Positions 4,343-14,672 of a DNA stretch of 14,672 nucleotides are shown here, one piece after another. This DNA comes from Candidatus Fermentibacterales bacterium (GTDB taxonomy: Bacteria > Fermentibacterota > Fermentibacteria > Fermentibacterales > JAFGKQ01). Under the pieces are notes generated by a model that saw only the letters and a list, made by a program, of their open reading frames with translations, was not told the origin of the DNA and did no database searches. Positions within the stretch are counted from its first letter, which is position 1. Every line of letters begins with the position of its first letter. The translations under genes were made by a program, and so were the position numbers. Where the stretch lies: contig JAFGKQ010000062.1 in NCBI GenBank assembly GCA_016928495.1, positions 1-14,672 on the forward strand, given 5' to 3'.

Positions 4343-5688
4343 GCGCAAGGAAGCTCCTGTTCGTGGCTTACTTCTTCCCCCCCGTGTCCACCGGGTCCGC
4401 GCCGAGGAACATCAGGCTCGCGAGGTACCTGCGCGAGGCCGGGTGGGAGATGGTGCCTCTTACCGTGGAGAATCCGCACGTGATACCGGTGGACCCCACC
4501 CTGCTGGACCTTCTGCCGGACGGTATGAAGGTCCACACGGTCCGGCATGTCGATCCTCTGTCATGGCTGGAGGCGCTCTGGCGCTTCATCGGGGGAGGAG
4601 GCGCCGCAACTGCAGCGCCACCGGGAGAGCGGAGCGGGGAGAGGCAGTCGCAGAATGCGGTGAAGAGGTTCCTGCACAACTACGTGTTCGTGCCGGACAG
4701 GGCAGTGACCTGGGTGCCGTCGGCTCTCGGCAGGGCACGGAGGCTCATCGCGTCGGAGAAGATCGAGCTCGTCGTGTCGGCGGGACCGCCGCACTCCTCG
4801 CACCTGCTGGGACATCTTGCCGGCAGGACAACTGGCAGGCCCTGGGTCACCTACTATGGTGACCTCTGGACCCACGACTCGTACGTGGGTTGGCATCACC
4901 GGTCCCGCCTGAACCTGCTTCTCCAGAGAAGGATCGAGGCTTTCATCACTCGCAGGTGTAACGGCATCGTCACGACCACCGAAACCTCCTCGGAGTTCTT
5001 CAGAAGCACCTACGGCGCCGCCTGCCCGCCGGTCTTCACCGTCATGAACGGCTACGATCCGGACATGCCATGGATGGGCGAGGGAGCCGAGGCCGTCGTC
5101 TCGCGTCCGAAACGACGGGAGATCCGCGTGGCATACGCCGGCTTCTTCATGGGCACGCAGACCCCCCGACCGTTTCTCGAGGGGCTGGCTCTCTTCGGGT
5201 CGAAGCATCCGGATGCGCGGGTGCGCTTCCGTGTGGTGGGTGACTTCTCGGAGAAGTACGCGGCCATGCCCTCCGCGCTGGGCCTCTCCGACATCGTGGA
5301 GGTCACGGGGAGAGTCCCCTACCAGGATGCCCTGGCCGAGATGAGGGACGCCGATCTTCTTCTGGCCTGCCTGCCACCGCTGCCGGGCAGCGAGGTCAAG
5401 AACCCGACGAAGCTGGCGGAGTACCTTCAGGCAGGCGGGTCCATTCTCGCGGTGGCTCCTGACGGTGAGCTCACGGGCATCGTGGATCGCCTCTCTGCCG
5501 GGTACTGCGCGAGTCCCTCGGGGGACAGCGTTCTGCATGCCCTGGAGAGAGCCTGGGCGGACTGGACCGGTCCGGGGCTTCGGAGAGCGTCTCGAGAGGC
5601 CGCCGAGCAGCTCTTCGACATGAGACGCAACTGCGCGAGGCTCGCCGGGTTCTTCGACGGCGTCGTGCGCTCTGCCTCCGGGAGCTAG
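4339..5688 (+). CDS. Glycosyltransferase, GT4/WbuB-like
   Basis: A 449-residue protein of the glycosyltransferase-B superfamily. The N-terminus FVAYFFPPVSTGSAPRNIRL is the classic opening of WbuB/GT4-like enzymes, which have a Gly-rich donor loop after strand 1. SAGPPHSSHLLG (147-158), YYGDLWTHD (172-180) and MNGYD (236-240) follow. NPTKLAEYLQAGGSIL (355-370) marks the C-terminal nucleotide-sugar site, although the E-x7-E pair is less obvious than in the two neighbours. Residues about 84-105 form a Gly/Ala/Arg-rich low-complexity insert. The ATG is overlapped by the previous stop and preceded by GGAGAG. The stop is shared with the convergent phoU stop in one CTAG. It likely acts with the upstream enzyme on the same surface glycan; the substrate is unknown. 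Confidence 0.84.
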   Translation: MSARKLLFVAYFFPPVSTGSAPRNIRLARYLREAGWEMVPLTVENPHVIPVDPTLLDLLPDGMKVHTVRHVDPLSWLEALWRFIGGGGAATAAPPGERSGERQSQNAVKRFLHNYVFVPDRAVTWVPSALGRARRLIASEKIELVVSAGPPHSSHLLGHLAGRTTGRPWVTYYGDLWTHDSYVGWHHRSRLNLLLQRRIEAFITRRCNGIVTTTETSSEFFRSTYGAACPPVFTVMNGYDPDMPWMGEGAEAVVSRPKRREIRVAYAGFFMGTQTPRPFLEGLALFGSKHPDARVRFRVVGDFSEKYAAMPSALGLSDIVEVTGRVPYQDALAEMRDADLLLACLPPLPGSEVKNPTKLAEYLQAGGSILAVAPDGELTGIVDRLSAGYCASPSGDSVLHALERAWADWTGPGLRRASREAAEQLFDMRRNCARLAGFFDGVVRSASGS

Positions 5689-6338
5689 CCCAGGTCCACC
5701 TGCTCCCCGGTGACGGTGAAGATCACCCGCTCGCAGATGTTCTCCACGCGGTCGCCGCTCCGCTCGAGGTTGTGCGCTACCCAGAGAAGAGCCATCGCGG
5801 GGTCTATCGAGCCGGGGTCCTTCAGGATGAAGAAGATGAGGTCCCGCTGAACGACCTTGTACAGCTCGTCGATGAGCTGGTCCTGCTCGGGTATGGCCCT
5901 GGCGGCGGCGGCGTCCTCGCGAACGAATGCCTCGACGGCTTTCTCCAGCATGCCGCGTGCCCTCTCGCACATCCTGGGGATATCCACGAGCGGTTTCAGC
6001 AGGGGCTTCTGACCTATGAAGATGTTCAGCCTTGCGATCCCCTTGGCATAGTCGCCGATTCTCTCGAGCTCAGTGGCTATCTCCAGGACCGACGCGATCT
6101 TCCGGAGGTCCGTGGCCACGGGCTGCTGGGTAGCTATCAGCGTGAGGCAGTCCTCCTCGATCTGGAACCGCATGCGGTTTATCTCCTCGTCCCGTTCGAT
6201 GAGGAGCGCCGCGCCCTCGAGGTCCCTCCGGGAGAGCTGCTCGACCGACTGCTTCAGCGCTTCCGAGACCACCTTCCCCAGTCTCAGGATGCTGCCCAGT
6301 ATCTCGCTGATCCTGTTCTCGTAGGTCTCCCGCGCCAT
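5685..6338 (-). CDS. phoU: Phosphate signalling regulator PhoU
   Basis: Cytoplasmic all-helical protein that links PstSCAB transport state to PhoR and keeps the Pho regulon off when phosphate is plentiful. It has 217 residues, normal for the family, with the two PhoU three-helix repeats. The metal-binding signatures are ELERIGDYAKG (90-100) and NLERSGDRVENI (190-201). It is the last gene of the pst operon, 27 bp after pstB. An AGGAAGG ribosome site sits about nine bases before the ATG at 6338. The C-terminal stop lies within a CTAG that also holds the stop of the convergent glycosyltransferase, leaving no room for a terminator between them. Confidence 0.97.
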   Translation of the reverse strand: MARETYENRISEILGSILRLGKVVSEALKQSVEQLSRRDLEGAALLIERDEEINRMRFQIEEDCLTLIATQQPVATDLRKIASVLEIATELERIGDYAKGIARLNIFIGQKPLLKPLVDIPRMCERARGMLEKAVEAFVREDAAAARAIPEQDQLIDELYKVVQRDLIFFILKDPGSIDPAMALLWVAHNLERSGDRVENICERVIFTVTGEQVDLG

Positions 6339-6365: not shown

Positions 6366-7145
6366 CTAGCTGAACCTGCCGGAGATGTAGTCCTCCGTGG
6401 TCTTCTCCCGGGGATTGGTGAATACCCTGCTCGTCGGGCCGTACTCGATCAGGTGCCCGCTCCTGTTCTCGTCCGTCATGAAGAAGGCGGTGAAGTCCGA
6501 CACCCTGGCCGCCTGCTGCATGTTGTGGGTAACTATGACGATGGTGTAGTCCTTCTTCAAGGTCTGCAGCAGCTCCTCGATCTTGAGCGTGGCTATGGGA
6601 TCGAGAGCGGATGCCGGCTCGTCCATGAGGATTACCTCCGGTTCGACCGCCAGGGTCCGCGCGATGCAGAGGCGCTGCTGCTGGCCGCCGGATAGCGCGA
6701 GGCCCGACTTGCTCAGATCGTCCTTGACCTCGTCCCAGAGGGCAGCGCTCCGGAGGCTCTTCTCGACTATCTCGGCGAGCCGGTTTCTGTCGCGCAGCCC
6801 GTGGGCCCTGGGGCCATAGGCAACGTTGTCGAATATGGTCTTCGGGAACGGGTTGGGCTTCTGGAAGACCATCCCGACCAGCCGCCGGAGCTCGACCACG
6901 TCCAGCCTGAAGATGTCCTGGCCGTCGAGCAGCACCTCGCCCGCCACCCTCACCCCCGGGATCAGCTCGTTCATCCTGTTGAAGGTCCTTATGAAGGTGC
7001 TCTTGCCGCAGCCGGAGGGCCCTATGATGGCAGTGATGCGGTTGGAGGGGATGTCGAGCGTCGTCTCGTGCAGCGCGCAGAAGTCCCCGTACCAGAGCTT
7101 GTAGCCTATGGTCCTCAGCCTGCAGGCGCCGGTAGTCTCTTCCAT
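6366..7145 (-). CDS. pstB: Phosphate ABC transporter ATP-binding protein PstB
   Basis: ATPase subunit that powers PstCA phosphate import at the inner face of the membrane. All ABC motifs are intact in its 259 residues: Walker [10 protein letters not shown] (42-50), Q-loop at Gln95 in VFQKPNPFP (the PNPFP stretch is diagnostic of PstB), signature LSGGQQQR (151-158), Walker [14 protein letters not shown] (171-183) and H-loop His207 in TIVIVTHNM. The ATG at 7145 lies three bases after the pstA stop, so translation is probably coupled. Nothing is missing or unusual. Confidence 0.98.
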
Positions 7146-7148
7146 CTC

Positions 7149-8042
7149 TCACGCACCGATCCTTGCCGAAAGCTTCCTCGAGAACAGGTTGATGACGGCG
7201 TTGATGATGATGATACTGATCACGAGGATCGCCGCCGTGCCCATCGCCTTGTCGAAAGCCCTGGTCTCCATCGCCAGGTAGTAGACATGGAGCGCCATGG
7301 TCCTCCCGCCGGAGAGCAGGGAGGTCGGCATCCTGTAGCTCCCACCCAGAGTGACGTAGAAGATGGCCGTCTCGCTGACTATCCGGCCAACGCTGAGGAC
7401 TATGCCGGTCATTATCCCGGGGATGGCGGCAGGGAGCACGACCTTCTGGGTGGTCTGCCACCTCGTCGCACCCAGCGCCAGGCTGCCGTTCCGGTAGGAC
7501 ACCGGCACGGCCTTGAGCGCTTCCTCGGTAGTCCGGATCACGACCGGCAGGATCAGGCAGGCGCCCGCCAGGCCTGCGGCCAGGAGCGAGAAGCCGAGGT
7601 GCATGGAGGACACGAACAGGGCGTAGCCGAAAAGGCCGAAGATGATCGAAGGGACGCCTGCCAGGGTCTCGACGCCGAACCTGGCCGTGCTGACCACAGC
7701 CCTGATGATCCGGCTCTTCCGGGCCATAGCCTCGGCGTACTCGACGAGGTAGATGCCGGCCCCTACGCCCAGGGGCGTGGCAATCCCTACCGTCAGCACC
7801 ACCAGGTAGAGCGTTGCCACGATGGTGGTGGAGATGCCGCCCTCTCCCGAGATGCCACCCCTGGGAGGGGTCGTGATGAACTGCCAGGTGATGGAGCTGA
7901 GGCCCTTGGCCACGATGTAGCCCACCACGATCAGCAGTATCAGCACGCTCAGAGAGCCGGCCGCCCACACCAGCGAGAAGGCTATCCTCTGCATGAGCCT
8001 CCTGCTGCCGAGGTTGCTGCGTCCGGACCCGGGAGCGTTCAT
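7149..8042 (-). CDS. pstA: Phosphate ABC transporter permease PstA
   Basis: Second membrane subunit of the high-affinity phosphate importer, 297 residues. Hydrophobic segments lie near residues 22-46, 73-100, 125-147, 150-170, 205-230 and 268-288, giving the usual six helices. The cytoplasmic EAA-type coupling loop that contacts PstB is NGSLALGATRWQTTQKVVLP (185-204). VETLAGVPSIIFGLFGYALF (124-143) is the conserved Pst permease stretch. The ATG at 8042 overlaps the pstC stop (ATGA) and has GGGAGCG upstream. A longer in-frame reading reaches 8630, but its extra residues are a frame-shifted shadow of pstC. Confidence 0.96.
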   Translation of the reverse strand: MNAPGSGRSNLGSRRLMQRIAFSLVWAAGSLSVLILLIVVGYIVAKGLSSITWQFITTPPRGGISGEGGISTTIVATLYLVVLTVGIATPLGVGAGIYLVEYAEAMARKSRIIRAVVSTARFGVETLAGVPSIIFGLFGYALFVSSMHLGFSLLAAGLAGACLILPVVIRTTEEALKAVPVSYRNGSLALGATRWQTTQKVVLPAAIPGIMTGIVLSVGRIVSETAIFYVTLGGSYRMPTSLLSGGRTMALHVYYLAMETRAFDKAMGTAAILVISIIIINAVINLFSRKLSARIGA

Positions 8043-8935
8043 CGCGTGCGCTCCCTCATTATGGCGCGGGCCGAGCTGTTGATGAGCATTATGAGAACGA
8101 AGAGGATGACTCCCGTGGCGAACAGAGCGCTCTCGTGGATCCCGGTGGCGTAGTTGATCTCGACGGCTATGTTGCCGGTCAGCGTCCGGGCCTGGCTGAG
8201 GAAGATCGTCAGCGGGTTGGCGTTCAGGGGCCTGGGTATGATCACCGAGTTGCCTATGACCATTATCATGGCGATGGTCTCGCCAAGGGCCCTTCCGATT
8301 CCCAGTATGATGGCGGCGACGATCCCGGACCTGGCGGAAGGCAGGATGACCCTGGTGATGGTCTGCCACCTGGTCGTGCCCAGGGCCAGCGAGCCCTCCC
8401 GGTACTCCCTTGGCACCAAGCGGATCGCGTACTCCGAGATGTTGGTGATCGTCGGGAGGATCATCACGGCGAGCACCGCGGAAGCGGCCAGCAGCCCGAA
8501 GCCGGAGTTGCCGGCGACTGGCACCTTCCTCGCCAGGGGCACCAGCACGACCATTCCGAACAGGCCGTATACCACGCTCGGAATGCCGGCCAGCAGCTCT
8601 ACGGCGGGCCTCACTATGTTGCTCATCCACCTGGGGGCGATCTCAGCCAGGAAGACCGCGCAGCCGATGGCAAGAGGTACCCCCAGGATCGCAGCGCCGA
8701 TGGTAACCAGGACGGACCCGGCTATCATGGGAACCAGGCCGAACTCCTCGAGGCCCGGGCGCCAGACGCTTCCCGTGAGCAACCGCCCGAGCCCGATCTC
8801 GCTGATGGCCGGAAGGCCCTCCCTGAGCGTGAAGAAGCCGATGAGGAATACGGCCAGGATGCTGGTAAGGGCCATGAGCATGAGGAAGTAGCCCACCGAC
8901 TTGTCTACGATGAACCTGGTGCGCATCAACATCAT
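8039..8935 (-). CDS. pstC: Phosphate ABC transporter permease PstC
   Basis: First membrane subunit of the phosphate importer, up to 298 residues. Predicted helices lie near 14-37, 68-98, 110-133, 146-166, 203-228 and 267-287. The EAA loop is EGSLALGTTRWQTITRVILP (180-199), nearly the same as in PstA. ELLAGIPSVVYGLFGMVVLV (113-132) and GRALGETIAMIMVIGN (214-229) are conserved Pst permease segments. Three in-frame ATGs cluster at 8935, 8932 and 8926. None has a strong ribosome site, and the last (MRTRF) may be the real start. The weak start and the upstream hairpin fit lower expression than the binding proteins. The stop overlaps the pstA start. Confidence 0.96.
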   Translation of the reverse strand: MMLMRTRFIVDKSVGYFLMLMALTSILAVFLIGFFTLREGLPAISEIGLGRLLTGSVWRPGLEEFGLVPMIAGSVLVTIGAAILGVPLAIGCAVFLAEIAPRWMSNIVRPAVELLAGIPSVVYGLFGMVVLVPLARKVPVAGNSGFGLLAASAVLAVMILPTITNISEYAIRLVPREYREGSLALGTTRWQTITRVILPSARSGIVAAIILGIGRALGETIAMIMVIGNSVIIPRPLNANPLTIFLSQARTLTGNIAVEINYATGIHESALFATGVILFVLIMLINSSARAIMRERTR

Positions 8936-9019: not shown

Positions 9020-9841
9020 TCAGATGACCGAGATGTAGCCCTCGGAAGAAACGATAGCCTGCCCGTCAGGGCTCATGATGAACTCGAGGAATCGGGCAGC
9101 CGCGCCGCCCGCGGGGCCCGGCGTTATCATGTTGAGAGGCCTGACGACCGGGTAGATACCAGTCTTGGCGTTGCTCACGGAAGGCTCAATGCCCTCGATG
9201 CTCAAACCCCTGACGCTCGGGTCGAGGTAGCCGAAGGAGAGGAAGGCTATCGAGTTGGGGGTCGTGCTCACGGAGGTTCGAACCGCGCCGTTGGAGGGAA
9301 GCAGGATGGCCCCGCTCGTTATGAGAGCCTCGTCCATGACGAGCTCCTCGAAGGCTGCGCGGGTCCCGGAGCCCTCTTCCCTTGCGATTACGACTATCAC
9401 CTGGTTCGGGCCGCCGACCCCTGACCAGTTGGATATCTCGCCCGAGAAGATCTGCCTGACCTGCTCGACCGTCAGGTTGGACACGCTCACGCCGGGGTGC
9501 GCGACGATCGCAATGCCATCACGGGCTATGGTGTGGACCACGATGCCGGGGAACTCCTGGAACTCGGACTCCTTGACCTCCCTGGAGGCCATGCCGATGT
9601 CGGCAGTGCCCTCACCGGCTGCCTTCACGCCTACGCTCGAGCCGCCGCCGCCAACGGTCACCATGATGTCGCTGTGAAGAGCCTCGAAGGCCTCTCCCAG
9701 CTTCTCCGCGAGCGGCTGGACGGTTGTGGAGCCGAAGAGAGTGATCTCGGTGTCGGCCCCGGCGCTCTTCAGCGGGACCAGAGCCAGGGCGGCGGTGAAG
9801 ACCGCAGCCTTGAGGATCGATGCTGCTGTGATCTTGTGCAT
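9020..9841 (-). CDS. pstS: Periplasmic phosphate-binding protein PstS, soluble paralogue
   Basis: Substrate-binding protein of the PstSCAB importer, 273 residues. A Sec signal peptide covers about residues 1-29, with likely cleavage after the AGA that ends at residue 29. There is no lipobox Cys, so it should be free in the periplasm. Phosphate-site loops are GSTTVQPLAE (37-46), GGGSSVGVKAAGEGT (65-79) and EEGSGTRAAFE (155-165), the signature of the PstS_2 type. It is a tandem paralogue of the lipoprotein gene 18 bp upstream, about two-thirds identical by eye and collinear without gaps over the mature domain. AGAAAGGCG precedes the ATG. It is followed by a strong hairpin and then pstC. Confidence 0.95.
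   Translation of the reverse strand: MHKITAASILKAAVFTAALALVPLKSAGADTEITLFGSTTVQPLAEKLGEAFEALHSDIMVTVGGGGSSVGVKAAGEGTADIGMASREVKESEFQEFPGIVVHTIARDGIAIVAHPGVSVSNLTVEQVRQIFSGEISNWSGVGGPNQVIVVIAREEGSGTRAAFEELVMDEALITSGAILLPSNGAVRTSVSTTPNSIAFLSFGYLDPSVRGLSIEGIEPSVSNAKTGIYPVVRPLNMITPGPAGGAAARFLEFIMSPDGQAIVSSEGYISVI
9033..9082 (-). repeat. 50-bp perfect repeat, copy 1 (3' end of soluble pstS)
   Basis: Identical at all 50 positions to 9873-9922, exactly 840 bp away. It encodes the C-terminal FIMSPDGQAIVSSEGYI region. Identity extends through silent sites, unlike the flanking sequence. A second shared stretch of 29 bp is at 9357-9385 and 10197-10225. Confidence 0.9.
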
Positions 9842-9859
9842 GTTCGGAAACGCCTTTCT

Positions 9860-10732
9860 CTAGTTGACCGCTATGTAGCCCTCGGAAGAAACGATAGCCT
9901 GCCCGTCAGGGCTCATGATGAAGTCGAGCCAGGCCTTCGAGATGCCTTCCGGCTGGCCGAGCGTGATCATGTTGAGGGGCCTCACGACGGGATACTCGCC
10001 GGACGCGGCCGTCTCCTCGTTGGGCAGGACTCCGTCGACGGCTATGGACCTGACGGTCTCGTCCAGGTATCCGAACGAGAGGAAGCCTATGGACATGGGA
10101 GTCGTCGAGACGGTCGTGCGCACCGCCCCGTTCGAGGGCTGGAGCACGGCGCCGCCAGTGATGAGCGTCCCATCCATGACCAGTTCCTCGAAGGCCGCGC
10201 GGGTCCCGGAGCCCTCTTCCCTTGCCACAGTGATGACAGGGCCAGCGGAGCCTCCGACTTCCGACCAGTCGGTGATCTCGCCATTGAAGATGTTCCTCAC
10301 CTGCTCGGTCGTGAGCCGGTCGACTCCCGCATCGGGGTGTGATACGATGGCGATGCCGTCGCGGGCGATGGTGTGAACCACTATGCCAGGGAACTCCTCG
10401 AACTCGGAGTTCTTGATCTCGCGGCTGGCCATCCCGATCTCGACGGTGCCTTCACCCGCGGATTTCACGCCAACGCTCGAGCCGCCGCCCTGGACGGTTA
10501 TCTCCACGTCGGGGTACTCGGCGCTGAAGGCCTCCGAGAGAAGCTCCGCAAGAGGCTGCACCGTGGTGGACCCCGCCACGCTTATCCGGCCGGAGAGAGC
10601 AGGCTGCCCGACCGTCGCCGTTGTGTCCGGCGCACCGCTCGAGCCCTGTTCCGGCTGCTCACCCTCGCCGCAGCCGCCGACGATCGCCAGAACGCCGGCC
10701 GCCAGTGCGAGAGCTCTCAGTTTTCCAGTCAT
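9860..10732 (-). CDS. pstS: Phosphate-binding lipoprotein PstS
   Basis: Second phosphate-binding protein of the locus and first gene of the pst set, 290 residues. The N-terminus is a lipoprotein signal: charged MTGKLR, a hydrophobic core, then the lipobox VGGC with Cys21 as the predicted lipid-modified residue. An approximately 27-residue Ser/Gly/Thr/Gln-rich tether (22-48) follows before the folded domain. The ligand loops match those of its neighbour: GSTTVQPLAE, GGGSSVGVKSAGEGT and EEGSGTRAAFE. The start at 10732 is well supported by GGAGGTA eight bases upstream (10741-10747). Membrane anchoring here and a free paralogue next door suggest a division of labour, which is inference. No Pho-box-like repeat was found directly upstream. 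Confidence 0.95.
   Translation of the reverse strand: MTGKLRALALAAGVLAIVGGCGEGEQPEQGSSGAPDTTATVGQPALSGRISVAGSTTVQPLAELLSEAFSAEYPDVEITVQGGGSSVGVKSAGEGTVEIGMASREIKNSEFEEFPGIVVHTIARDGIAIVSHPDAGVDRLTTEQVRNIFNGEITDWSEVGGSAGPVITVAREEGSGTRAAFEELVMDGTLITGGAVLQPSNGAVRTTVSTTPMSIGFLSFGYLDETVRSIAVDGVLPNEETAASGEYPVVRPLNMITLGQPEGISKAWLDFIMSPDGQAIVSSEGYIAVN
9873..9922 (-). repeat. 50-bp perfect repeat, copy 2 (3' end of lipoprotein pstS)
   Basis: Partner of the copy at 9033-9082. The two pstS genes align without gaps at a constant 840-bp offset over their ligand-binding domains, as expected for a tandem duplication. Confidence 0.9.
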
Positions 10733-11152: not shown

Positions 11153-12193
11153 CTAGAACTTCATTCTCCAGTTCAAGTACATGTCGGTGTAGCCGTCGGT
11201 GTTCTCGTCCTCGAAGCTGTAGTTGCGTGCACCGATCTGCACCGTGTTGTACTTGGTCATGAAGAGGTTGAGGCAGAAGTCCATGGCGCCGTAGTTATCG
11301 CTATCGGGCGCCTCCGTGCCCTGCCAGGCCGGGCTGATCTGCTCGTAGCGCACCGCGGGCTGGATGCCCGTGAGTAGCCAGGCGTTCTCGACGCCGAACA
11401 TGGCGTTGAGCTCCACCGAGTAGATGCCGGCATTGCCGGTGTCGAGGCCGGACACCTCCGGACCCCACCAGCCGAGGCTCAGGTACTCGCCGAAGAAGCC
11501 GATGTCCACGTTGTCGGAGGCAGGGTACTTGAGGGCGGCATAGCCCCCGAAGCCGCTCGAGCTGAACGAACTCTCCATCGTGCTGTCCTCGTAGGCCGAG
11601 TAGGAGCCGTAGGAGCCGCCGAGGGTCACCCAGTCGGTGGGGCTGGCCCAGCCGTGGAAGGTTATCTGCTTGTTGCTGTCATCCTCCGGTTTGTTGTCGC
11701 GGCTTCCGTTGGAGTAGACGATGTCCAGGCCGGCTACATCGAAGTCGGTGTAGAGGCCGAAGCCAACGTCCCTCTTGCCGTACTTGCCGAAGCCGGAGTA
11801 ACCGGTCCAGAGAGGGCGGTCCAGGAAGCGGAGACCGGAGCCGGACTCGGTGTAGCCGTAGCCGAAAGGCCTCTTGAACTGACCGCCCCGAAGGCAGACC
11901 TGGTCGGAGAAATGCAGGTTCATGTAGACGTCCTCGAGGTGCACCTCGCCGTCGGTGCTGTAGAGCTTGAGCTCGAACTTGGCGTCCAGGAAGTCGTTGA
12001 CCCTGGGCACCCAGGTCAGGTCCGTGATAGCCCGGAAGGCCATGTCGGGCTCGTGGTCTTCCTCGCCGTAGATGTAGGCCGTAGCGAAGCTGTAGCCCTT
12101 GAAGGCCCACATCTCGCTGCCACCGGTGGAGAACTCCCCGCCCGCGAAGGCGCAGAAGCTGGCCAGAACGAGCACAGGCATAACGAGTCTCAT
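11153..12193 (-). CDS. Phosphate-selective porin O/P family outer-membrane protein
   Basis: Predicted beta-barrel channel for anion or phosphate entry across the outer membrane, 346 residues. The signal peptide is about residues 1-17 or 18, with cleavage near AFA-GG. Porin O/P features are an N-terminal strand repeat, LRGGQFKRPFGYGYTES (101-117) with LRFLDRPLW (121-129), and GKRDVGFGLYTDF (139-151) followed by GLDIVYSNGSRDN. The protein ends in NWRMKF, the terminal aromatic used by the outer-membrane assembly machinery. I chose the ATG at 12193, with AAAGGTGG just upstream. The ATG at 12256 lies inside a leader hairpin and would bury the signal peptide. A four-repeat Pho-type promoter lies upstream, placing the gene in the phosphate-starvation response. 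Ligand selectivity cannot be proved from sequence. Confidence 0.85.
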   Translation of the reverse strand: MRLVMPVLVLASFCAFAGGEFSTGGSEMWAFKGYSFATAYIYGEEDHEPDMAFRAITDLTWVPRVNDFLDAKFELKLYSTDGEVHLEDVYMNLHFSDQVCLRGGQFKRPFGYGYTESGSGLRFLDRPLWTGYSGFGKYGKRDVGFGLYTDFDVAGLDIVYSNGSRDNKPEDDSNKQITFHGWASPTDWVTLGGSYGSYSAYEDSTMESSFSSSGFGGYAALKYPASDNVDIGFFGEYLSLGWWGPEVSGLDTGNAGIYSVELNAMFGVENAWLLTGIQPAVRYEQISPAWQGTEAPDSDNYGAMDFCLNLFMTKYNTVQIGARNYSFEDENTDGYTDMYLNWRMKF

Positions 12194-12234
12194 CGAAACC
12201 ACCTTTCGATCAGGTTGAGACCGGGTACCTTCCA

Positions 12235-12254
12235 GGGGATGTGAAGCCATCCCC
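12235..12254 (-). promoter_or_regulatory. 5' leader hairpin of porin mRNA
   Basis: A perfect 7-bp stem (GGGGATG/CATCCCC) with a six-base loop starts about ten bases after the transcription start expected from the upstream -10 box. Near-5' stem-loops of this kind protect outer-membrane protein mRNAs such as ompA from decay. The hairpin also sequesters the upstream ATG, supporting the start at 12193. Confidence 0.5.
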
Positions 12255-12271
12255 AACCCCTCACGGTGGGT

Positions 12272-12326
12272 CTTATACCGGCGGGGAATGAAGGTCGGAT
12301 GAAGCCTGTGTTAAGTCGGAGTTAAG
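12272..12326 (-). promoter_or_regulatory. Pho-box promoter: four 11-bp repeats plus -10 box
   Basis: On the minus strand the half-sites CTTAAC (12326-12321), CTTAAC (12315-12310), CTTCAT (12304-12299) and CTTCAT (12293-12288) lie at an exact 11-bp period. After a 10-bp gap comes TATAAG (12277-12272), a good -10. PhoB/PhoP-family regulators bind tandem direct repeats at one per helical turn, with the box ending about 10 bp before the -10 and replacing the -35. The CTTAAC core is closer to cyanobacterial and Bacillus Pho sites than to the E. coli CTGTCAT. Four half-sites imply two PhoB dimers. Transcription should begin near 12265 and run into the porin. The element starts about 32 bp after the phoR stop. 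Confidence 0.85.
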
Positions 12327-12358
12327 GCTCTAAGCGGCTATCTGTCAGTCATTTGAGA

Positions 12359-14128
12359 TCAGACTGTGGAAGGTGCTGCGGGAAGGGCCACCCTGAACAG
12401 GGACCCCTTGCCGGGCGAGTCGGCTACTTCCACCGAGCCTCCGTGCAACACGACGATGTGCTTGACGATAGAGAGCCCGAGGCCGGTGCCGCCCTGCTGT
12501 CTGGACCTCGAGCGGTCGACCACGTAGAACCTCTCGAAGATCCTTCCCCGCTCCTCCTCCGGGATGCCGATGCCAGTATCGGCAACCTCGGCGACCACTC
12601 GATCGCTGCCCTCGGAGTAGACCCTGACCACGATCGAGCCCTTTTCGGTATAGCTCAGAGCGTTGTCCAGCAGGTTGACGAAGACCTGCGCCAGCCTGAA
12701 GGCATCGCCGCTCACGGGGGAGACGTCCTCTCCGGCGTCCAGCCTGAGCTCGAGGCCCTTCACCAGGGCTTTCTGCTGGAACATCGCCACGGCATCGCGC
12801 GCGACATCGCGAAGATCCACAGGAGCCGGATCCTGGATCGAGCCCCGGGTCTCCAGCTCGCTGAGGACCTGCAGGTCCCTCACCAGGCTGATGAGGCGGT
12901 CGGCGTTGCTCTCGATAATGCCCACGTACCTCGAGCTCTCGGCATCGAGGCCGGCCCCGGAGAGAGTCTCCGCGAATCCCTTGATAGCGGTCAGAGGCGT
13001 TCTCAGCTCGTGAGAGACGTTGGCGACGAAGTCCTTTTTCATCCGCAGCACCCCGGTGAGCTCCGTCACATCATAGAGGGTGACGATGATCTCCGAGCTG
13101 GCGGGAATCCTGCTGCTCCTGCAGACGTAGGTCCGGCCTCCAAGCCCGAGCTCGGTGTCCTCCTTCCCTGCTCCGGAGATGGCCCTTCCCAGGAGATCGT
13201 AGAGATCAGGGTCGCTTACGAACCTGCGGAAGGGGTCACCCGCCGAGGGCTTGCAGCCGACGATCTCCTCGAAAGCCCTGTTCCAGATGGATGCCTTTCC
13301 GTTCCGGTCCAGCACCAGCAATCCTTCCCGCATCGAGGAGATCACTGTGCCGAGCTTCTCCTTCTCGGCCGACAGCTCGCCGATGACGCGGCCGGTCCGC
13401 TCGATCATCCGGTTGAAGCTCCTTCCGAGCTCCGACATCTCCCGTATGCTGGAGGGAAGGACCCTCACGCCGAAGTCGCCGCTTGCCGCGCTTCGAGTGG
13501 CCCTCACCATGTCCCTCACGGGCCTGGACAGGCTCCTGGAGAAGGCGAGGGCGACCACCAGGGCCGCGACGGCGAAGATGGCCGTGCTCCTTATCACCCT
13601 GCCGGTCAGGGATGCCATGACCTCCTCGATGCTGGTCAGCCTGAGGCTCAGCCTGAGCACAGCGGGCCGGCCGGCGGTCCCGCTGATCGGGATCGCAACG
13701 TACAGGAGATCCTCCTCGAGCGTGGTGCTGTACCTCTGAGAAGATCCCATTCCGGACCTGAGGGCCCATATGATCTCCGGCCTTCCTCGGTGGCTCTCCA
13801 TCTCTGCAGGATCGGCATAGGTATCTCCGAGAACGGCGCCCGAGACGTCGACAACGGTGATCCTGATGTTCATCTCGCTGCCCAGCGCGTCAGCCAGCGA
13901 GTCTACCGAGGCTGTGGCCAGGCTGTCTCCCGACATGGCCTCTTCCACGCCGGATCGCATCCCGACGGCCATGCGGTAGAGATCGAGCGCCGTGGTCTCG
14001 GTGAAGGTCTGCCTCACGGTCTGGTGCGACAGGTAGATGATGAAGGCGCAGAGCACCAGGGTTATCAGAAGGAAGCCCAGGAACAGCCTGAGCAGAAGCG
14101 AGAACCCCCCCGCGGATCCAGCCCTCAT
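12359..14128 (-). CDS. phoR: Phosphate-regulon sensor histidine kinase PhoR-like
   Basis: Membrane sensor kinase of 589 residues that phosphorylates the adjacent PhoB-type regulator. Domain order: first membrane helix about 11-33, an extracytoplasmic sensor domain of about 145 residues, second helix about 178-197, HAMP about 198-250, PAS about 262-355, HisKA with H-box ANVSHELRTPLTAIKGF (369-385, His373), then HATPase. The HATPase shows the N-box NLLDNALSYTEKG (485-497), G1 DTGIGI (517-522), F-box FERFY (531-535) and G2 GGTGLGL (546-552). The large sensor domain resembles Bacillus PhoR and WalK rather than E. coli PhoR, which lacks one. The ATG overlaps the regulator stop (ATGA). The ligand of the sensor domain is unknown; the name rests on its pst and phoU neighbours. 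Confidence 0.93.
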   Translation of the reverse strand: MRAGSAGGFSLLLRLFLGFLLITLVLCAFIIYLSHQTVRQTFTETTALDLYRMAVGMRSGVEEAMSGDSLATASVDSLADALGSEMNIRITVVDVSGAVLGDTYADPAEMESHRGRPEIIWALRSGMGSSQRYSTTLEEDLLYVAIPISGTAGRPAVLRLSLRLTSIEEVMASLTGRVIRSTAIFAVAALVVALAFSRSLSRPVRDMVRATRSAASGDFGVRVLPSSIREMSELGRSFNRMIERTGRVIGELSAEKEKLGTVISSMREGLLVLDRNGKASIWNRAFEEIVGCKPSAGDPFRRFVSDPDLYDLLGRAISGAGKEDTELGLGGRTYVCRSSRIPASSEIIVTLYDVTELTGVLRMKKDFVANVSHELRTPLTAIKGFAETLSGAGLDAESSRYVGIIESNADRLISLVRDLQVLSELETRGSIQDPAPVDLRDVARDAVAMFQQKALVKGLELRLDAGEDVSPVSGDAFRLAQVFVNLLDNALSYTEKGSIVVRVYSEGSDRVVAEVADTGIGIPEEERGRIFERFYVVDRSRSRQQGGTGLGLSIVKHIVVLHGGSVEVADSPGKGSLFRVALPAAPSTV

Positions 14129-14672
14129 GTCTCGAGCTTGTAGCCCACTCCCCTCACGTTCCTGAGCAGAGAGGCGGCGTCGCCCAGCTTTTCCCTGATG
14201 TGCCTTACGTGAACATCGACAGTTCTGTCGAGCACGGCCTTCTCGCTGCCCCAGAGCCTGTCCAGGATCTGCTCCCTTGTGAAGACCCTGCCGGGCTGCG
14301 AGGCCAGGATGGCCAGTATGCGGAACTCCGTCGATGTCAGGGCCACCGGCCTTCCGGAGACAGTTGCCTCGAACCGTTCCGGGTCCACAGTCAGGATCCC
14401 GCCGACGGTCGCTCTGCCCGAGCTCTCCCTGCGCTCCAGGCTTCTTCTGAGAACGGCCCTGACCCTGGCGACCAGCTCTCGGGGTGAGAAGGGCTTGGTA
14501 ACGTAGTCGTCGGCGCCGATCTCCAGCCCGGTGACGCGATCCGCCTCCTCGCCGAGGGCGGTGAGCATGACGATGGGGAGGCCGGCCCAGTCCCGGTTCG
14601 CCCGCAGCGTTCGGCAGACCTCGATCCCACTCGCGTCAGGAAGCATGAGATCGAGGATGAGCAGGTCCGGCC
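14125..14672 (-). CDS. phoB: PhoB/OmpR-family response regulator, N-terminus cut by the window edge
   Basis: DNA-binding regulator expected to bind the 11-bp repeats before the porin. The last 181 residues are visible; about 45 N-terminal residues, including the acidic pocket of strand 1, lie past the right edge. The receiver domain shows the phospho-acceptor Asp in LLILDLMLPD (visible residue 7), the switch Thr in VMLTA (visible 37) and Lys in YVTKPFSPREL (visible 59). The winged-helix output domain follows after an Arg/Ser-rich linker: VALTSTEFRILAIL, VFTREQILDRLWG, the recognition helix RTVDVHVRHIREKLG and the wing RGVGYKL. The stop overlaps the phoR start. The phoB name is from context. 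Confidence 0.93.
   Translation of the reverse strand, partial: PDLLILDLMLPDASGIEVCRTLRANRDWAGLPIVMLTALGEEADRVTGLEIGADDYVTKPFSPRELVARVRAVLRRSLERRESSGRATVGGILTVDPERFEATVSGRPVALTSTEFRILAILASQPGRVFTREQILDRLWGSEKAVLDRTVDVHVRHIREKLGDAASLLRNVRGVGYKLET

Follow-up and report, generated by a model that had tools for sequence, protein, structure and literature searches.

A conserved four-unit repeat array ahead of the pst operon as a predicted Pho promoter in Candidatus Fermentibacterota

What kind of regulatory element occupies the short gap between a phoR-like gene and the porin gene that opens a phosphate-uptake operon in Candidatus Fermentibacterota, a phylum that is uncultured and little studied, and which genes does it serve? 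The window, i.e. the whole stretch of 14,672 nucleotides analysed here, is contig C146 of a 2.3 Mb MAG of 81% completeness. Its minus-strand gene order is phoB-like, phoR-like, the repeat array, porin, pstS, pstS, pstC, pstA, pstB and phoU, with the following genes:

14125..14672, minus strand: phoB-like response regulator (Trans_reg_C and Response_reg), N-terminus cut by the contig end
12359..14128, minus strand: phoR-like sensor histidine kinase (HisKA, HATPase_c, HAMP, PAS), ending 32 bp upstream of array unit 1
11153..12193, minus strand: porin (Porin_O_P-like), first gene of the operon, ATG at 12193 (PF07396 E=0.0023, below cut-off)
9860..10732, minus strand: pstS, phosphate-binding protein (PF12849 7e-43)
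9020..9841, minus strand: second pstS (PF12849 2e-41)
8039..8935, minus strand: pstC (PF00528 1.8e-20; gene order)
7149..8003, minus strand: pstA, start approximate (PF00528 5e-20; gene order)
6366..7145, minus strand: pstB (ABC_tran 1e-28)
5685..6338, minus strand: phoU (PhoU 2e-45)

The porin orthologue L036 of family f2 matched PF07396 above the cut-off (4e-9). The two pstS genes form a tandem pair within one operon (9020-10732); several relatives keep the second copy elsewhere.

The array lies between the end of the phoR-like gene (12359) and the porin ATG (12193). Including the -10 element it occupies 12272-12326 of the minus strand and reads CTTAAC-CTTAAC-CTTCAT-CTTCAT at an exact 11-bp period. 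Units were read from the sequence, and bits give the weighted information of the first seven columns of each unit:

12316..12326, minus strand: Pho box unit 1, CTTAACTCCGA, most upstream, 6-bp word CTTAAC at 12326-12321; 8.9 bits
12305..12315, minus strand: Pho box unit 2, CTTAACACAGG, word CTTAAC at 12315-12310; best conserved unit, 9.9 bits
12294..12304, minus strand: Pho box unit 3, CTTCATCCGAC, word CTTCAT at 12304-12299; 4.9 bits
12283..12293, minus strand: Pho box unit 4, CTTCATTCCCC, word CTTCAT at 12293-12288; 8.4 bits
12272..12277, minus strand: -10 element TATAAG (relatives carry xATxxT at the same place)
12264..12267, minus strand: predicted transcription start region, placed from the -10 position

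On re-reading of the minus strand, the original prediction proved exact in its coordinates and 11-bp phase, and also in its ten bases (12287-12278) between the last 6-bp word and TATAAG (12277-12272). Five of these bases, GCCGG, separate the 44-bp array from TATAAG. A fifth unit was rejected: because the next period upstream (12337) matched at only 3/6 positions, the array comprises four units.

The Pho box unit is defined as 11 nt long (PMC4415409), and a distance of 10 bp between Pho box and -10 element has been stated (PMC1906773). The general description of a Pho box, with at least two tandem direct repeat units of 11 nt upstream of phosphate-uptake genes and about 10 bp upstream of a -10 element in place of a -35 element, agrees with the four units in exact phase, their location ahead of porin-pstSSCAB-phoU (and likewise in relatives) and the 10 bp to TATAAG. 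The repeats had been proposed to stand in for the -35 element, and this is borne out by the fixed -10 distance; no ordinary -35/-10 promoter was found within 12150-12450. Near the predicted mRNA 5' end we also observed a perfect 7-bp hairpin, GGGGATG-GCTTCA-CATCCCC (12235-12254, minus strand). A hairpin with a different sequence was noted by eye at a comparable position in some f2 leaders; the 5' leader folded no better than shuffles (z ~ -1).

The shortness of each unit is the one point in favour of regarding the array as a chance run or a functionless low-complexity repeat, and we give this reading next to no credence. The four-unit pattern CTTMAY-N5 x4, allowing up to three mismatches, had no match in 200 dinucleotide shuffles, and its matches in the window were the array and one period further upstream only. 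Without mismatches, the two-unit pattern had only five occurrences in the whole 2.3 Mb genome, and the overlapping pairs of the array itself account for three of them; other two-unit matches, on contigs C79 and C257, sit within long open frames. When a profile was built from relatives only, leaving out the own family, the array site outscored everything else in the window by about 28 bits, and 1 Mb of random sequence contained nothing that scored as high. A profile made of just the four f3 sites was too thin and missed the window site. Spacing and place are moreover conserved in more than 30 genomes, and on sequence comparison this conservation already refutes a chance origin.

A gap-free 58-column profile (A2, R1), applied to 42 genomes of the order, returned in essence a single strong site for each genome, located at the pst locus. 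A four-unit array with a -10 element at the same distance was located upstream of the pst operon in 30 of the 31 genomes bearing pstS, so that conservation among relatives, whose failure had been named as a possible refutation, was confirmed. The exception, G039, encodes only a distant PstS (50% identical). Among the 11 genomes in which pstS was not detected, the profile found an array in only one (G021) and none in the other ten. The G021 array follows directly on a phoR-like gene near a contig end, and pstS of this genome is therefore probably unassembled. Array and pstS were associated with a Fisher p of ~8e-8, to be read in view of the fact that related genomes are not independent. The profile was trained on most of the sites recovered, and the held-out evidence consists of the leave-own-family-out test, the new matches in Chloroflexota described below and the absence of arrays from pstS-less genomes. 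The window site was the weakest of the pst-operon sites recovered in the order (19.9 bits). Three families of the order have pst operons preceded by arrays with the identical -10 distance. The relatives found through their PstS bear names of Candidatus Fermentibacteria (Hyd24-12), i.e. Aegiribacteria, Sabulitectum and Fermentibacter daniensis. The -10 hexamer starts exactly five bases past the 44-bp array and shows AT at positions 2-3 in 31/31 arrays and T at position 6 in 30/31, the exception being the G of TATAAG in the window.

The genes around the array vary among the relatives. In f2 genomes with the porin, 68-91 bp separate the array from the aligned start of the gene. Family f3 has the window-type porin at another place, without an array; its pst operon begins with a gene for another outer-membrane protein (L156 5163-6236, L157 7401-8567) that shows no convincing similarity to the window porin, and the array lies directly after phoR and ahead of this gene. 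Two genomes (G028, G005) have the array ahead of pstS with no porin in between, and it is kept at loci L050-L054 and L056-L059, where phoR is not adjacent, and in several Sabulitectum-type genomes with no phoR upstream. Two relatives (G003, G012) carry a second array ahead of their separate second pstS operon, and the unlinked second porin copy of the own genome (67% identical, G000:C91) has none. Since the array is kept without adjacent phoR, without porin and with another porin, it belongs to pst expression and not to phoR or the porin. The original placement directly ahead of the porin-pst operon and beside phoBR agrees with the gene order of the window. Autoregulation of phoBR by the same array was rejected, as none of the f3 loci searched with the array model showed a match ahead of phoB.

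Across relatives the unit word was (C)TTAAC(A) and not CTTMAY. A Pho box of the lineage can thus be defined from the array across relatives, as had been suggested, only with a different word: relatives carry CTTAACA, and the proposed search for CTTMAY-N5 repeats returned three-unit, one-mismatch matches that were scattered and mostly outside pst, for which CTTMAY was discarded as lineage consensus. CTTAAC-N5-CTTAAC falls mostly on the pst locus in relatives. In the f2 arrays units 1 and 2, and mostly also unit 4, read CTTAACA, and unit 3 is degenerate (e.g. CCAAATA or GCAGACA); in f3, unit 4 is CCTCAC in most genomes and GCCAAC in G002, and unit 3 is assorted. Apart from an A at position 5, unit 3 is degenerate in relatives. 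Across the order as a whole, units 1 and 2 are strong, unit 4 is so in most cases, and unit 3 is the weakest. Two CTTAAC followed by two CTTCAT were seen in this genome alone, which was the sole representative of its family (f1) in the comparison. The contrast of a distal CTTAAC and a proximal CTTCAT pair was therefore not conserved and is not a rule of the lineage, given that unit 4 is mostly TTAAC in f2 and CCTCAC in most f3 genomes.

Which protein would act on the array? The best curated model for the response regulator was TIGR02154 (PhoB), with 197.6 bits for the 173-aa fragment in the window and 214 bits for a full-length f3 relative against a cut-off of 296.2, and we therefore call the regulator PhoB-like and not PhoB. 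For the kinase the best NCBIfam model was PnpS (315 bits, below the cut-off of 400), and its score also fell short of the curated PhoR cut-off. In its DNA-binding domain the adjacent regulator retains the E. coli PhoB residues R193, T194, D196, V197, H198, R203, R219 and Y223, and we take base-contacting residues to be among them, going by the PhoB-DNA structure. Positions 200-201 are not conserved, being RR in E. coli, RH in the window and TN in f3, which may be tied to the changed unit word. OmpR-family regulators commonly use tandem direct half-sites. This, together with the score of the adjacent regulator below the PhoB cut-off, is what speaks for another member of the family binding the array; the PhoB-like protein would then share this site or act at other ones. 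We consider such an arrangement very improbable: throughout the order the array goes with the pst operon, in many genomes phoBR stands immediately upstream, and the part of the regulator that contacts DNA is similar to that of PhoB.

A conserved array at pst operons, with a layout like that of E. coli pstS, thus identifies the element as a Pho box promoter, in line with the Pho-type promoter of the original prediction, and the adjacent PhoB-like regulator is most likely its driver. With high confidence we regard it as a Pho-regulon promoter that fires the porin-pstSSCAB-phoU operon via the adjacent PhoR/PhoB-like pair on phosphate limitation; that this regulator binds the array, that phosphate controls the operon and where transcription starts are what we infer from layout and gene context. 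Pho box promoters in general are occupied by a phosphorylated regulator of the PhoB, PhoP or SphR type and respond to low phosphate by induction. Under phosphate limitation the PhoR-like kinase would phosphorylate the PhoB-like regulator, whose winged-helix domains would then occupy the four 11-bp units in head-to-tail order as two tandem dimers at the -35 position, with one unit for each helical turn. The bound regulator would recruit sigma-70 RNA polymerase to the -10 element TATAAG, from where the polymerase would transcribe the operon.

A closely similar published word is that of the cyanobacterial SphR Pho box, CTTAACCT repeats of 8 bp with a 3-bp linker (PMC1906773). Both share the 11-bp period, nearly the same word (CTTAAC) and the location upstream of pst genes; at the level of words, the first two units and the relatives carry CTTAAC, and positions 7-8 differ from the consensus. 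The unit word (C)TTAAC(A) may belong to the class known for SphR. However, the published model has three units (PMC1906773) and the present array four, with a degenerate third in most relatives, and its host phylum is not cyanobacterial.

The pstS promoter of E. coli MG1655 reads CTGTCATAAAA CTGTCATATTC CTTACATATAA CTGTCACCTGT TTGTCC TATTTT, with the words CTGTCA, CTGTCA, CTTACA and CTGTCA at 11 bp, then TATTTT. It resembles the present array in having four 11-bp units, a deviant third, a -10 element directly downstream and a pst operon behind it. The architecture was therefore already known and the word is different: E. coli-type PhoB boxes have CTGTCAT units, whereas the window has CTTAAC/CTTCAT and the relatives CTTAACA. 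In addition, the E. coli -10 element starts six bases past the 44-bp array instead of five, and profile R1 did not recognise the E. coli site. In Bacillus subtilis the PhoP box consists of TTAACA-type repeats at 11-bp spacing and is thus alike in word and period.

Several Chloroflexota pst operons absent from the model also matched the profile (L250, L183, L220, L214, L215). Their arrays share four TTAAC-type units, a -10 element at the same or adjacent spacing and a closely related PstS; unit 3 differs in often being TTGAA. Literature searches for a Pho box in Chloroflexota or Fermentibacter returned no description. The PstS encoded at 9860-10732 is up to 67-68% identical to PstS of Chloroflexota (Anaerolineae; L176, L180, L183), and arrays of a similar kind lie upstream in the operons of these proteins. 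The pst genes may have been passed horizontally between Fermentibacterota and Chloroflexota.

A refinement of the Pho promoter explanation, and not an alternative to it, would be the originally proposed device of two affinities in which the CTTAAC pair is loaded first and the CTTCAT pair second, resulting in graded induction. Conservation across the order is highest in units 1 and 2 and lowest in unit 3, and the deviant unit of E. coli pstS is likewise the third. As the CTTAAC/CTTCAT split occurs in this genome only and f2 unit 4 is mostly CTTAACA, we hold this version to be unlikely. A strong distal pair combined with a weakest third unit could possibly still result in ordered or graded loading. 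More generally, and as a tentative idea that we rate rather doubtful, a fixed-distance four-unit (C)TTAAC promoter with a selected weak third unit might be a conserved device common to Fermentibacterota, Chloroflexota and, as regards layout, E. coli pstS, in which that unit sets the loading order of the dimers and the pst threshold.

Two further array-like sites were noted. A weaker one in the own genome (G000:C306:9562-9615; L284 3063-3116, minus strand; 14.8 bits) consists of CTTAACCCGGC AGCAATACGGG GTTAACAACGG followed by CATCTT at the same -10 distance; it follows an ORF with a weak alkaline-phosphatase match, precedes a 307-aa ORF and is a possible second Pho target. The other, outside training (G038:C56:6968-7019; L285 2969-3020, plus strand; 26 bits), is located directly upstream of a 214-aa secreted-looking protein without Pfam match, a candidate for an extra regulon member.

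We conclude that the array is a Pho promoter of a known kind, very well supported and newly documented for this phylum. A phylum that is represented here by MAGs thereby gains a concrete Pho box that can be tested, with the pst operon identified as its main and perhaps nearly only target. This Pho box outlasts changes in neighbouring genes such as porin type and phoR linkage. The weak third unit, also seen in E. coli pstS, poses a small and testable design question: if the idea of its selection is true, it would determine the order of two regulator dimers and thereby the threshold of pst induction.
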